Source: an uncultured Methanomicrobiales archaeon
Lineage (GTDB): Archaea; Halobacteriota; Methanomicrobia; Methanomicrobiales; Methanospirillaceae
Length of the DNA stretch: 36,883 nt
Assembly (NCBI GenBank): GCA_903819595.1
Contig: CAIJED010000226.1
Location: forward strand, 1-36,883
Direction: 5' to 3'
The notes under the pieces are model-generated. The model was not told the origin of the DNA, searched no databases, and was given only the letters and a program-made list of their open reading frames with translations. Below are positions 112 through 34,041 of this stretch, in pieces. The position numbers and the translations under genes were made by a program. The stretch's first letter is position 1, and each line of letters begins with the position of its first letter.

Positions 112-1688
112 GTAACTGTTCAGCCTGATGTTTGAGACAAGGCGGGAATAAATGGTTTGGCGTCAAATGCATCAGTAATCGATGCGAGAACCGATCTACC
201 ATTTTTTCTTACTGTTGAAATGTATCCTCTGATCCGACAGAACCAATCAGCACCCTCTTCACTTCGGAAGGTACCGGAAATTTTCTGCTGGACCTTCATC
301 ATACGGATATCTCGTTCGGCCTGGTTGTTATCGAATGGGATCGAGAAATCATACATAAACGCCAGAATCTCCGTTGGGTAACGCTCGAAGCGGTCAAGTA
401 GATTCTTCGGCGTCGATTGCTTCTTTCGACCTCGTTTACCCCCTGGTCGTATATCTTCTGTCACAGGATTTTCCTGTTTTCCTTGTTCAATTATTCTGGC
501 ATATCGTAACTCAAAGTCAGCAATTTGCTCTCGGCTTATTGAGGATAATTTCAGTTTGGCAGAATCCACGACTTTTTTGATTTCATGGATGAGTTCGTTC
601 ATCTGATCACTCCAGATCTGCCCAAAATTTTCTGATATTCCTGTTAGTTCTCGAATAAGATGGGCATTGCAGAGGGCATGGTGACAATCGTAATGGAAAT
701 ACGTCTTCCAGCAATCATGAACCATAGTACCTTTGAATGCAGGTAATATCTGCAATTCATCAGTTCCCTCTTTTCCACGTGTTTTATGGTGCCCGTACCA
801 TGTCAGAAGTGCAGTACTCGCTACATGCAACCAATGTCGTTTGGCAGTAACCCGAAATCCCGTTTCATCTACATGCAAAACCGGTGCTCTTGTTAGGGCT
901 TGCTTCACAATCTTGTCATAGTCCGCCAAGTTATTATTGCAGTTTTTCAATGCCAGGGCTATTGTCGCCTTACTAATGGATAATCCGAATACGTCGGAGA
1001 AAAGTTCGCAAATCCGTTCATATGGGATTAACTGGAAAACGCTGAGATACACCATCAGGGTTTTCAATATTTGCCCATATTGCACCGGATGCTCCACACC
1101 ATCTGGAAATTTTCCACGGTTATGATATCCACAATGAGGGCACTGTTTGTGTTCTGCCTGATGTTCTGTTACAGCGACTGTAATCGGTTGCGTGTCATAG
1201 ACTTGCCGCCGTTCTAATCCGATTACCGGAACAGATTCTAATGATTCTCCGCATCCTTCGCAGGTAGTTACTTTATGTGAAATTGTCTTATCAGGATTAT
1301 CCACCATTTCCAATGTGCGCCCAACATGTCCTCTTTGACCTCCTGCGGGTCGGTTTCCCTTCTTCCGCTGACTTTTTTGTGATACAAAAACATCGCTGGA
1401 TGGTGGTTTACTGCTGTTCTTACTGGTCTGGTTCAACCGAGCTTCCAGTTCTGTTATGCGAGCTTCAAGTTGAGCTATTCTGGCTTCGTATGTTTCAATG
1501 AGCGCGATTATTTCATCAGGATTTGTCTGACACAGAACCCTTATTTCTGCACGCTTTAGAGACATTTCGCTTGAATAATAGATATTCTCTTATTATATAA
1601 AGATCTAGCGGTATATGGGGCTCTATTTCTAAATTGAACCACACAAATGAGTTAGACAAAAATTATTGATTGATGGCTGAACAGTTAC
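112..1688 (-). mobile_element. IS66-family insertion sequence (single transposase ORF, 1577 bp)
   Basis: The ends are perfect 14-bp inverted repeats: GTAACTGTTCAGCC at 112-125 and its reverse complement at 1675-1688. Both start with GTAA, as is usual for IS66 ends. One transposase gene fills the element, without the small tnpA and tnpB genes of classical IS66, so it resembles the ISBst12-type subgroup. The transposase stop codon lies inside the left repeat. The flanking 8-mers (GATTCTTT on the left, TGCATTTT on the right) are not an obvious target duplication, which suggests a rearrangement or deletion after insertion. Confidence 0.88.
120..1565 (-). CDS. IS66-family transposase (TnpC-like)
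   Basis: This 481-residue protein is a full-length IS66 transposase. Order of parts: N-terminal leucine-rich coiled coil (about residues 25-48), the SSKPPSSD segment (51-58), a zinc-binding region with CEGC (102-105) and CPHC (142-145), then the DDE catalytic domain. Candidate catalytic residues are D233 (HVDETGF), D284 (MVHDCWKTYF) and E418 in DNNQAERDIRMMK, followed by the family-typical SGTFRS segment. No internal stop or frameshift is seen, so it may be active. Start is the ATG at 1565. It is the only gene of the element. Confidence 0.93.
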   Translation of the reverse strand: MSLKRAEIRVLCQTNPDEIIALIETYEARIAQLEARITELEARLNQTSKNSSKPPSSDVFVSQKSQRKKGNRPAGGQRGHVGRTLEMVDNPDKTISHKVTTCEGCGESLESVPVIGLERRQVYDTQPITVAVTEHQAEHKQCPHCGYHNRGKFPDGVEHPVQYGQILKTLMVYLSVFQLIPYERICELFSDVFGLSISKATIALALKNCNNNLADYDKIVKQALTRAPVLHVDETGFRVTAKRHWLHVASTALLTWYGHHKTRGKEGTDELQILPAFKGTMVHDCWKTYFHYDCHHALCNAHLIRELTGISENFGQIWSDQMNELIHEIKKVVDSAKLKLSSISREQIADFELRYARIIEQGKQENPVTEDIRPGGKRGRKKQSTPKNLLDRFERYPTEILAFMYDFSIPFDNNQAERDIRMMKVQQKISGTFRSEEGADWFCRIRGYISTVRKNGRSVLASITDAFDAKPFIPALSQTSG

Positions 1689-23060: not shown

Positions 23061-23852
23061 TCAGGCGTGTAGTTTTCCTGAGAAAATATGGACCGCGTGG
23101 CCTTCGAGGATGACGCGGTCACCATTTAGTTTCACGCGGACCGACCCTCCCCGGGCCGAACACTGGAAACCGACCATCTCTGTCTTTTTTAATTTCTCTC
23201 CCCAGTAGGGCGCAAGGCAGCAGTGTGCCGAACCTGTCACCGGATCTTCCGGCACGCCAATGGATGGTGCAAAGAACCGGGAGACGAAGTCGATGTGCGG
23301 GAGATCGGAACCCGCCGTGACGATGATACCCCGGGTCCGGATCGCGGTAAGGGCGTTGACATCTGGTTCGATGCTACAGACATCATCCGCCAGTGGCAGT
23401 TCCACTAAAATATCGAACCGGTTCCGGCCGGTATATACCGGCTCTACTCCAAGCGCCCGGGCAAGACCGGGCACCGGCATGGATGGGGCCGCCGGTTCTC
23501 CCGGGAAGTCCATGCTGATCCAGTCTTCGTCCTGCCTGATGACCAGTGGCCCGGAGAGAGTCTCAAAAGTGATCGGCTGGTCAGGGCCGACACGACCGGT
23601 CTTCCAGAGAACCGATGCGGCGGCGAGTGTCGCATGGCCACATAGTTCCACTTCCTTATCAGGCGTGAACCATCGCAGGTTCCATGCTGAACCTTTGGGA
23701 AAGAGAAACGCAGTCTCGGAATGTTTCAGTTCAGCTGCCACCTGCTGCATCCATGCCGCATCGGCCGGACCATCCGGGATACAAACGCCCGCCGTGTTGC
23801 CACTGAACGCGGCGCGGGTGAAGGCATCAACGAGGTGAAGTTCTGCTTGCAT
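23061..23852 (-). CDS. PhzF-family isomerase/epimerase-like protein
   Basis: 263 residues of the diaminopimelate-epimerase fold as in PhzF. The conserved FSGNTAGVC segment, the catalytic-region Glu in ELKHSETAFLFP, CGHATLAAA, and VPEDPVTGSAHCCLAPYW are all present. PhzF-like proteins isomerise small acids; the substrate of archaeal members is unknown. Length is slightly below the usual 270-300. ATG 23852 is preferred because the TTG at 23885 gives an extra 11 residues without family similarity. Single gene. Confidence 0.9.
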   Translation of the reverse strand: MQAELHLVDAFTRAAFSGNTAGVCIPDGPADAAWMQQVAAELKHSETAFLFPKGSAWNLRWFTPDKEVELCGHATLAAASVLWKTGRVGPDQPITFETLSGPLVIRQDEDWISMDFPGEPAAPSMPVPGLARALGVEPVYTGRNRFDILVELPLADDVCSIEPDVNALTAIRTRGIIVTAGSDLPHIDFVSRFFAPSIGVPEDPVTGSAHCCLAPYWGEKLKKTEMVGFQCSARGGSVRVKLNGDRVILEGHAVHIFSGKLHA

Positions 23853-24233
23853 GGACGAGAGATTGCGTGCCGGTACGTATAACAATTCTGGTGATAAACC
23901 AGTCTTCGCAGGTGCGATGATTTTAGTATCCTGCGATTGTTAGTCGTGTGATATAAAAAATGCGTTATTCAGGCCGGGATATAACAAGGAATGACCAACA
24001 GACCCGATTCTCAGTGCATGTATCCGAACGCCAGATATTCGGATAGAGTAACCATTTCGACCTGATACGTGACTAACCGGGATATCCCAATCCACCAAAA
24101 AAATGAAGAAACAGGGTATTAAGAAGAGTAAATAAGCAAATTTGAATCAGCCGGTGACAGGATTAAAAGTTTTATCCCCTTTTTGGGGTAGTGAAGGACG
24201 GATATCGCACCAACTGACTAGAAGCATTTTTTT

Positions 24234-25073: not shown

Positions 25074-25710
25074 TTACCCGTTGAAATTATGGTAGTCATA
25101 GCAGTTACGGATAAACTCCTGCTTCCGGTGTGCACTCGCGTTCAGCGGAGGTTTGAGGTACCCGACCTCCGGGGTCTGCAGGGCCGGGCAGAACGGGCAG
25201 AGGGCCGCATCGACATCGTTTGCTTTCTCCCGGACCGGGCAATAGTACGCCCCGTCGATGACTTCCACCGTGTCCCCGCCTGGAAACGACATCCCGACCG
25301 GGTGTCCGGGGAGTCCCTGCACGAACATGCAGAACCCTGCGAGCAGGTATTTTAAGAACTGAAGTCTGACCTCATCCTCCCCCCCCGGACGAGCACTGTG
25401 CCGCGACCATCTTCCAGTAATCACCGGTATCCGTCGCAAGGAACTCCCTCATACGGGTGAAATTTTTCAGTTCCTGCATTCGCCGGAGGGCCTGGTAAGT
25501 CCCGTGAAGGTGGCCGGTGATCGCCTCATTGAGGTTTTCCCGATATTCAGGGCTGATGTCCTGGACCATACCAGAGAAATTCCACCGAATCTGCTGGAGG
25601 TCGTTTGGTGAGTATGTCATAACGATGGCGACAATGGCCTGCCCGATCTCCCCGTTCGTCTTTTTCGACCAGAGTGCTGAGCATTCACGTCCGATCTGTC
25701 TGCGGTCCAT
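25074..25710 (-). pseudogene. DUF2115 (UPF0305) protein, frameshifted at a run of eight G
   Basis: Two minus-strand frames make one protein. From ATG 25710 (GGAG 8 bases upstream) frame 1 runs through FLATDTGDYWKMVAAQCSS into a G8 run (25379-25386) and stops; frame 2 continues EDEVRLQFLKYLLAGFCMFV to TAA at 25074. Seven G instead of eight would give a continuous 211-residue product. The HPVGMSFPGG, YYCPVREKANDV and CPFCPALQ segments are typical of DUF2115, a methanogen protein family of unknown function. The run may be a sequencing error, a real loss of function, or phase-variable slippage. Confidence 0.75.
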
Positions 25711-25862
25711 AAAGGTAACTCCGTGTAGGGGGAAGTGGCATATTCTATTGAGCCAATTTCTCCCAAGTCTGATATGTGATCATTGGATCCTACTGGTTTT
25801 CAGGTACACCAGAAATAGTGGTCCGTTCCGCCCCATAAAAGAAATGCAGAATAATGATGTGG

Positions 25863-26180
25863 TTATGATAATACCGCGGTATGTTTCCCGGTTACTTCGT
25901 AGACTGTTAATTCTGTGGGTGCGGTCATCCACGCGGCCGATTTTGAAAAATGTTCCTTCATGTGCGGGGTGGCGAGATGATCATCAAGGTGTTTCCGGCT
26001 CTCCCACTCTTCACAAAAAATGAACTGCCCATCATGGAACGTATCTGAATGGAGTTCATACCGGGTACATCCGGGTTCTGACAGGACCAGGGGGATAATC
26101 CGGGCCACCTGGTCCGTAAAGGTCTGGCAATGGTCCGGGTGAACATAACACCTGGCTGCAACAAGTAACATACCTACCAT
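25863..26180 (-). CDS. Antibiotic-biosynthesis-monooxygenase-type (ABM) domain protein
   Basis: 105 residues with the dimeric ferredoxin-like ABM fold: MLLVAARCYVHPDHCQTFTDQVARII, SEPGCTRYELHSDTFHDGQFIFCEEWES, HLATPHMKEHF. Such domains bind or oxidise small quinone- or heme-like ligands; the substrate here is unknown. An ATG three codons downstream (26171) would give the more usual N terminus. CCTATATGG just before the ATG may be a TATA box, giving a nearly leaderless transcript. Confidence 0.85.
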   Translation of the reverse strand: MVGMLLVAARCYVHPDHCQTFTDQVARIIPLVLSEPGCTRYELHSDTFHDGQFIFCEEWESRKHLDDHLATPHMKEHFSKSAAWMTAPTELTVYEVTGKHTAVLS

Positions 26181-32357: not shown

Positions 32358-32783
32358 ATGAACATCGAGAACCAGAAAGCATGTGATGATTTCCTTTCCA
32401 ATGCAGATGCAATCAGCGATGATATCCTGGCCGAAACTAATGAGATGCTGGGGACCATGCCGTTCATCCTGCCAGTCCTCAGGGAAAGATCCGAATATTT
32501 TGCCCTCTCTTCGCTCGCGGATGAGATGGTCTGCCGGCCGAAGCACCTGTCCCCGAAGACTGCTGAGCTGGTGGCACTGGCCGCAGCTGCAGGAACGGGT
32601 GCAGAATTCTGCATGAAAGTACATATCGGAGCTGCAGCAAAAGAGGGGGCCAGCCGGGATGAGATTTACGATACGATCCTGATCGCGGCACTTGTCGGGA
32701 AGACCCGTGTCCTCGCACCGGCACTCCGTGAGCTGTGCGAAGTATATCCCCTGGATACCACAGGTGAACAGGGACCACGATGA
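32358..32783 (+). CDS. Carboxymuconolactone-decarboxylase-family (AhpD-like) protein
   Basis: 141 residues of the all-helical CMD fold: FALSSLADEMVCRPKHLSPKTAELVALAAAAG, then TGAEFCMKVHIGAAAKEGASRDEIYDTILIAALV. AhpD relatives use a CxxCxxxH site for peroxide or disulphide reduction; here the first Cys of that site is Ala and only Cys84-x3-His88 remains, so AhpD-type activity is unlikely. Start ATG 32358 has GGAG 7 bases upstream. The stop overlaps the ATG of the amidohydrolase gene (ATGA), so they form an operon and probably share a pathway. Confidence 0.88.
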   Translation: MNIENQKACDDFLSNADAISDDILAETNEMLGTMPFILPVLRERSEYFALSSLADEMVCRPKHLSPKTAELVALAAAAGTGAEFCMKVHIGAAAKEGASRDEIYDTILIAALVGKTRVLAPALRELCEVYPLDTTGEQGPR

Positions 32784-34041
32784 GACCAATCCTCATCCGT
32801 GCCGGGAATTTCTGGGACGGGATATCAAAAAAATCTCTCGGGCCCCGGGAGATCCTGGTCATTGGAGAGACTATTGCGGAGATCGGAACAACCGTCAGCG
32901 AGCCGGCAGGAGCAGAGATTATCGATCTTTCTGGTCATACGGTCACGCCCGGGTTCATCGACTGCCATGTCCACCTCACTCTCCGACCTGAGCTGCTCGG
33001 CAGTTTCTGGAGTTATTCGCCCTCTTATTAGGCCCTTCTCGGTGCAAAAGCGCTCAAAAAACTTCTCATGAATAGTTTTACTACTGCACGGAACTGCGGG
33101 GATATGGACCCCCATGGGTTTACGGTCTGTGACCTTATAAACTGGCCACCGAACGGGGGTTCATCCCAGGTTCACGGCTGGTCTGCTCAGGTTACATGAT
33201 CTCCTCCCCGGGAGGCCATATGAATGCAATGCTCTCGCTTGCCCCGGATAGTCGCCCATGGGAGAACGGCCTTGCAGACGGATCGGATGAGATCCGTAAA
33301 GTGGTACGGAACGAGATAAAACACGGTGCCGAGTGGGTGAAATATGCTGCATCGGGTGGCTTCTCCACCGCGGGCGATGACCCCACGCAGGTCACCTATA
33401 CCCAGGAGGAGATGGATGTGCTTGTTGCAGCAGCCAGGGATTTCAACAGGCCCGTGGCGGTCCAAGTCTTTGGGGACGAGGTGATTAAAAGGTCGGTCCT
33501 TGCCGGGGTAAGATCTGTTGAGCATGGGAGCATGGTCTCGAAAGCAACTGTATCGCTCATGGAGGAGAAAGGCGTGTATCTCGTCCCAATGATGCTCATG
33601 GCGACACACCCTGCCCGGATGGCTGATGATGATACCGTATGGCAGGCACTCGGTTCCCCGCCGCATATGCGGGTAAAAGTGCGGAAATATCGTGATGCTC
33701 TCGTTGACGGTGCAAAGAACATCGCATTGAGTGGCGTGAATATAGCGTTCGGGACTGACCTCGGCATCTTCTCGTATGGATTGAACGGTGCCGGGGAGTT
33801 CCAGGAGATGGTAAAGAATGGAATTACCCCGGAACGGGCGTTAAGGGCGGCAACGAGCGTGGCAGCAGAGCTCCTGCAGCGGGATGACATCGGGATCCTT
33901 CTGCCCGCTCGAAACGCAGATATTATCGCCATGCCGGCCGACCCGTTCGACGATATCACGGCTACGGAAAGAGTGGATTTTGTGATGAAAGGGGGGACAG
34001 TCGTCCGTAGAAATGGAGTTCCCCTGGTGGAGTCTTTCTGA
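32780..34041 (+). pseudogene. Amidohydrolase gene broken by an amber codon and a frameshift
   Basis: The frame starts at ATG 32780, overlapping the CMD stop, with PGFIDCHVHL (H63, H65 of the metal-binding HxH). An in-frame TAG (33029-33031) interrupts it at codon 84; the same frame resumes with ALLGAKALKKLL and TTARNCGDMDPHG up to about 33136. There one base is missing, and the frame from ERGFIPGSRLVCSGYM continues through ISSPGGHMNAM, KYAASGGFS, SVEHGSM and a Asp-containing FGTDLG to TGA 34039. The restored protein of about 420 residues is an M38 amidohydrolase (imidazolonepropionase/prolidase-like). It is not functional as read unless TAG is read through and the frame corrected. Confidence 0.82.

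Follow-up and report, generated by a model that had tools for sequence, protein, structure and literature searches.

A DUF2115 gene split over two frames at a run of eight G in a Methanomicrobiales archaeon, perhaps the result of recent slippage in a redundant copy

In an uncultured Methanomicrobiales archaeon, one gene of the DUF2115 family (PF09888) is split over two reading frames at a run of eight G. The gene lies in a window of 36,883 nucleotides, the whole stretch that was analysed, which is contig C226 of the draft assembly G000 (3,151,758 bases in 401 contigs; 96.78% complete and 1.57% contaminated). Within DUF2115 it belongs to the subfamily NF002175, and in this methanogen it is an additional copy. 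On balance we favour, with modest confidence, a real and recent slip in a redundant copy, which would make the gene an early pseudogene. A search of the literature on DUF2115 and UPF0305, which we take to be another name for the same family, found no paper.

The features are collected in Table 1. On the + strand the run reads CCCCCCCC, that is, eight G on the - strand. The frame that opens with the ATG stops right after the run and gives a product of 112 residues that ends in SSGGGG; the 3' frame, one base off, runs on as GGEDEVRLQFLKYLLAGFCMFVQGLPGHPVG... and ends with NFNG. The 3' piece contains conserved stretches, CPFCPA and NFNG, and the family match in its open frame starts past the run. 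Both pieces lie above the Pfam gathering cut-off of 25 bits (47.3 for the 5' piece and 104.6 for the 3' piece); with NF002175 they reach 112.8 and 205.6 bits, and neither half alone meets the NCBIfam cut-off of 373. The sequence-only reading had held that the gene is broken exactly at the run, and the Pfam profile bears this out, with model positions 2-91 before the run and 95-162 after it. Its arithmetic, by which seven G would restore the frame, is likewise correct, since the two halves are one base apart. The break falls mid-gene, at about codon 109 of 211, in a variable linker. Three cysteines that are invariant in an alignment of 26 (C157, C171 and C174 in the numbering of L036, a congener's gene) are found in the 3' piece only and are absent from the 112-residue product.

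Table 1. Positions of the split DUF2115 gene, its neighbours and some broken gene copies elsewhere (G, genome; C, contig; L, locus; window positions unless a contig is named).
Feature	Position	Strand	Basis or remark
Eight-G run (eight C on +), reading-frame change	25379..25386	-	Sequence; frame change also in codon-usage parses
DUF2115 5' piece, 112 aa, ATG start (25710), TGA right after the run (stop 25372)	25372..25710	-	PF09888 2-91, 4.2e-12; NCBIfam NF002175 22-125 of 228
Open frame with DUF2115 3' piece (ends 25074)	25074..25439	-	PF09888 95-162, 9.6e-30; NCBIfam NF002175 128-228 of 228
Possible ribosome-binding site, GGAG, 8 bases upstream of ATG 25710	25719..25722	-	Sequence; putative function
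Upstream neighbour, antibiotic biosynthesis monooxygenase (ABM) domain protein	25863..26180	-	No match in relatives' neighbourhoods, E 1e-20
Downstream neighbour, PhzC-PhzF family	23061..23885	-	No match in relatives' neighbourhoods, E 1e-20
CheW copy with eight-C break (L217)	G000:C208:2460-3160		
Broken extra DUF2115 copies (L190, L196 and L194; L191 and L197)	G031:C2, G028:C1 and G003:C22, in this order; G035:C2 and G022:C21 for the other two		

A run of eight G is not unusual in itself, as the window holds one where a mean of 4.03 is expected from dinucleotide shuffles. What goes beyond chance is the joining of two halves of one family at the run. A reading as two separate genes with coupled translation is rejected because the pieces fit consecutive stretches of one model, both in Pfam and in NCBIfam. 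The window gene is like the proteins of the DUF2115 / NF002175 family (PRK01022.1-2) in that its halves match consecutive parts of the family's models, but unlike them it is split over two frames. The structure model of L036 has a mean pLDDT of 74.5, with 51 of its 211 residues below 50, nearly all of them from residue 160 on; a Foldseek search of this model against the PDB at E up to 0.001 gave no match. A profile search gave only a match at 0.002 to a circular tendon repeat protein and one at 0.52, neither of them informative, and a search for repeats around the window gene brought nothing useful.

Relatives were gathered by scanning genome contigs with the 3' piece. This gave 60 loci, of which 58 match the read-through protein in one frame over at least 169 of its 211 residues and were compared. 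The other two, L093 and L095, cover only the 3' end (51 and 49 residues) and were left out of the tree and the counts; L095 begins at a contig end and L093 does not, the latter being a truncated 3' remnant of 51 residues within a contig (L093:8001-8153). In all 58 relatives the matched stretch is free of stops. Eight G were found at the site in none of the 58, only in the window genome. The longest run of G or C there is seven in L082, six in L039 and L040, and five or less in the other 55, and the equivalent of the run is a variable, gap-prone linker. Set against these unbroken relatives, the window gene as assembled carries one frame break, the kind of disabling lesion by which frameshift pseudogenes are recognized.

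The two halves of the window gene look as if they had been under constraint until recently. By Nei-Gojobori counting on a codon alignment, dN/dS between the window copy and L036, L037 and L039 is 0.23-0.41 before the run and 0.12-0.16 after it, only somewhat above the values for L036 against L037 and L039 (0.26-0.30 before and 0.07-0.10 after). For the window copy against L039, this corresponds to a dN of 0.172 and a dS of 0.51 before the run, and 0.068 and 0.57 after it; for L036 against L039, the figures are 0.144 and 0.55 before, and 0.045 and 0.68 after. At 61 near-invariant positions (at least 95% conserved) the window copy departs three times (L to I, M to I and R to Q), and the other rows of the alignment between zero and five times. 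In Tajima's relative-rate test with L043 as outgroup, the window copy is significantly faster than L039 (25 v 10), with no significant excess over L036 (21 v 17) or L037 (22 v 16). No lesion was found in the window copy besides the indel. Low dN/dS and few departures at near-invariant positions thus suggest that the coding sequence on both sides of the run was kept until recently. Constraint of this kind is compatible with a lesion of very recent date, with an error in the sequence or with a gene that is on most of the time, but not with old decay.

Elsewhere in the same genome, contig C98 carries a whole, more distant DUF2115 copy. Furthermore, residues 1-88 of another copy are found at the very end of C179 and residues 87-211 at the very end of C134. 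The orientation and the residue numbers of these two pieces agree with one gene across a contig gap, so that together they presumably form one whole gene, and its linker frame is open. Entered in the tree separately, each of the two pieces groups with L036. The gene adjoining the C179 piece, of the Prismane family (PF03063), is 97% identical over 236 amino acids to a partial gene beside L036. The window copy branches just outside its congeners (98/83 for the clade of the others, 99/86 for the clade that includes it), and its end branch of 0.22 is the longest of the clade, those of L036, L037, L039 and the C134 and C179 pieces being 0.017-0.074. When 12 window genes were compared with the DUF2115 neighbourhoods of the relatives at E 1e-20, ten were without a match and two had matches of at most 44%. 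In view of this tree placement and of a neighbourhood with few counterparts, the window gene is an extra copy, either relocated or acquired. As to a possible foreign origin of contig C226, its M3 peptidase has matches in three of ten relatives searched, the best being 65% identical and that in the sole congener having one 52%.

Genes of the Prismane family, which presumably takes in the hybrid cluster proteins, are found beside DUF2115 or a few kb from it in L125 (on C179 of G000), L036, L090, L075, L056 and L049. Their proximity in several genomes possibly reflects a functional link. An IS66-type transposase lies near the left end of the window (120-1565, - strand).

Other gene copies in these methanogens are also broken by changes of frame. 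In at least five of 40 relative genomes, DUF2115 is present both in unbroken form, once or more, and as an extra copy broken by a change of frame. In two of these copies, L190 (G031) and L196 (G028), the frame changes fall within the same variable region as the window break, where inspection by eye found no G/C run longer than five. In the remaining three, the frame changes elsewhere or at several places, by eye at a run of seven A in the copy on G035:C2. ThiC has a third copy in G001 (L157, on C56) that is broken at an eight-G run and a third copy in G003 (C22:28844-30055) that is frame-broken, and each of these genomes has two unbroken copies. A heavily decayed DUF2115 copy (L194) is situated on the same contig as the broken ThiC copy of G003, at a distance of about 11 kb. 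Aligned copies of CheW have, at the same place, seven C in G003:C7 and G001:C47 and eight C in G000:C208. The CheW copy on G003:C119 (L211), which reads CCCCCTCC, likewise has one extra base there and, according to Pfam, is split over two frames. Since the run is interrupted in this copy, the miscount of an eight-run is no explanation for it, and a miscount in a run of five would be needed; the insertion at this C-rich site therefore looks real in G003:C119. The extra base of G000:C208 at the same place may stem from the same event or from another. Two CheW copies of G000, on C360 and C182, have long open frames, and those on G000:C267 and G003:C400 have frame changes elsewhere in the gene.

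The general picture is that genes are duplicated and copies then decay by way of small indels. Spare copies are not the only ones to break, however, because Epimerase_2 has no whole copy among its matches: all eight in G000 fail to cover the family within a single frame, and one of them is at a contig end. The Epimerase_2 (UDP-GlcNAc 2-epimerase) matches in L100 (G000:C85), G000:C120 and G000:C353 are partial and in several frames. The window itself contains a broken amidohydrolase gene (32780-34041, + strand), in which a TAG stands in frame near 33030 and the frame changes near 33137; an unbroken paralogue, 54% identical, is present on G000:C205. A literature search on frameshift pseudogenes in Methanoregula found one paper, the accessible part of which is unrelated.

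The trustworthiness of long runs in the assembly was assessed from the assembly itself. In its 3.15 Mb there are 29 G/C runs of eight or more, and 12 of these lie within a single open coding frame extending 90 bases or more beyond them on each side; long runs are therefore often recorded in frame. The codon-usage parse had placed 14 of the 29 in frame; on re-checking, 12 proved to be well inside a frame, while L109 is close to a frame start and L123 is where a contig ends. With a simpler scan of flanking coding potential, three frame changes were seen among the G000 runs: the window DUF2115 gene, Epimerase_2 on C85 and CheW on C208. The Epimerase_2 split is supported by Pfam (profile positions 178-245 and 243-319); in CheW, positions 35-135 score well above the cut-off and positions 1-40 reach 20.2 bits, just below 23.5. 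For DUF2115 and CheW a copy in open frames exists elsewhere in the genome, for Epimerase_2 none. In the relatives, the parse gave 12 runs in frame and no break among 20 for G014, 14 and one among 20 for G001, and 10 and none among 21 for G003, where the runs are the first ones listed, neither all nor random, and the in-frame counts are parse output only. These break counts are lower bounds, because the parse missed the breaks on C85 and C208; the single one that it detected in G001 is that of ThiC. Breaks at long G/C runs are thus a minority. Systematic miscounting of homopolymers in the G000 assembly is unsupported, given the 12 of 29 runs that are well inside one open frame, and occasional miscounting may still occur.

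An occasional error of this type is the main rival to a real slip: the cells would carry a run that preserves the frame, and the draft assembly would have one base too many. We regard this as possible, though unlikely. The assembly is a draft in 401 contigs, and the DUF2115 family seems hard to assemble in it, since the other copy falls on contig ends. The read-through protein is also well kept, with three of 61 near-invariant positions changed and a dN/dS of 0.12-0.41 against three congeners. The GeneTack survey, in the part of it available to us, holds that singleton (unclustered) frameshifts with BLASTP validation should be sequencing errors and not genuine indels (PMC3711429), and this expectation speaks for an error here too. 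Against an error stand the 12 long G/C runs recorded in one open frame in the same assembly, and the CheW copy of G003, where a base gained in an interrupted run points to a real C-run insertion in the genus. It seems improbable, on the other hand, that strand slippage varies the run length in the population and so turns the window gene on and off. In some bacteria genes are indeed switched by G/C tracts of similar length, the window gene resembles such contingency genes in that the length of a G tract inside it decides the frame, and the constraint on both halves is what would be expected of a gene that is often on. However, unlike in phase-variable contingency genes, the tract is neither conserved nor recurrent at the site among the 58 relatives (no eight G, and at most seven in L082 and six in L039 and L040), and the gene has no known contingency role. 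The run sits in the middle of the gene, in a variable linker, and the genome has a further copy in open frames. For these reasons switching is unsupported; the sequence evidence makes it unlikely without refuting it. A survey that covers 99 prokaryote genomes, in its accessible part, reports that poly(A) and poly(T) tracts lie nearer to the 5' end of genes and that poly(C) and poly(G) tracts do not; it notes an excess of poly(A) or poly(T) tracts of 8 and 9 bases for just one of its 18 archaea, Candidatus Methanoregula (PMC2831843). A wider version, in which slipped-strand switching truly occurs in this archaeon and the runs in extra CheW and ThiC copies of the genus betray a generally high slippage rate, with duplicates flickering on and off, appears quite doubtful.

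Hardly probable at all is a recoding of the eight-G gene, by which slippage of the polymerase or the ribosome on the run would yield some full-length protein. A G homopolymer is slippery in principle, and the 3' half is constrained. However, recoding sites are normally conserved and this run is missing from the relatives; judged from the sequence, the usual -1 ribosomal shift would enter the wrong frame and a +1 shift would be required. In the 3' frame, moreover, the first ATG past the run comes about 18 codons on, within the conserved part. A conserved programmed frameshift is rejected: all of the 58 relatives under comparison keep a single frame and lack the run, and a conserved slippery site with a frame transition was found in none of them.

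The reading that we prefer remains that of a redundant copy hit by a recent slip. It is favoured by the break at the run, the unbroken relatives, the other copy in open frames, the neighbourhood with few counterparts, the long end branch of the window copy and the broken extra copies of DUF2115, CheW and ThiC. The G run may have expanded in a Gly-Gly/acidic linker, where the copying machinery would have slipped once, with the gain of one G. The product would thereby have been shortened to 112 residues, with loss of the conserved Cys/His-rich half, and the extra base would be truly present in the cells and fixed. This loss would be tolerated because another copy in open frames remains. Several observations weigh against an early pseudogene: both halves still look selected, no further lesion is seen and the near-invariant positions are mostly kept; the rate excess is significant only against L039; Epimerase_2 is broken without a whole spare copy; and L190 and L196 break in the same variable region as the window gene. 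The window gene is like a frameshift pseudogene of a duplicated gene, which in the terms of the GeneTack survey (PMC3711429) would be a singleton caused by a recent indel or a sequencing error, in having a single transition with profiles on both sides and no conserved frameshift site, the eight-G break being seen in one genome only. Unlike the usual frameshift pseudogene, it has one lesion and is still constrained, so that it would be very young if real. Among the three explanations originally offered, namely switching, sequencing error and decay, decay of a redundant copy is thus the best fit, and nothing was found that supports switching.

The window gene should accordingly be annotated as a frame-broken additional copy and not as a switch. 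If reads showed mixed lengths of the run, the case would gain real interest as slipped-strand switching in an archaeon. The wider weight of the case is modest: in these methanogens, small indels, in part within G/C runs, have broken extra copies of DUF2115, CheW and ThiC.
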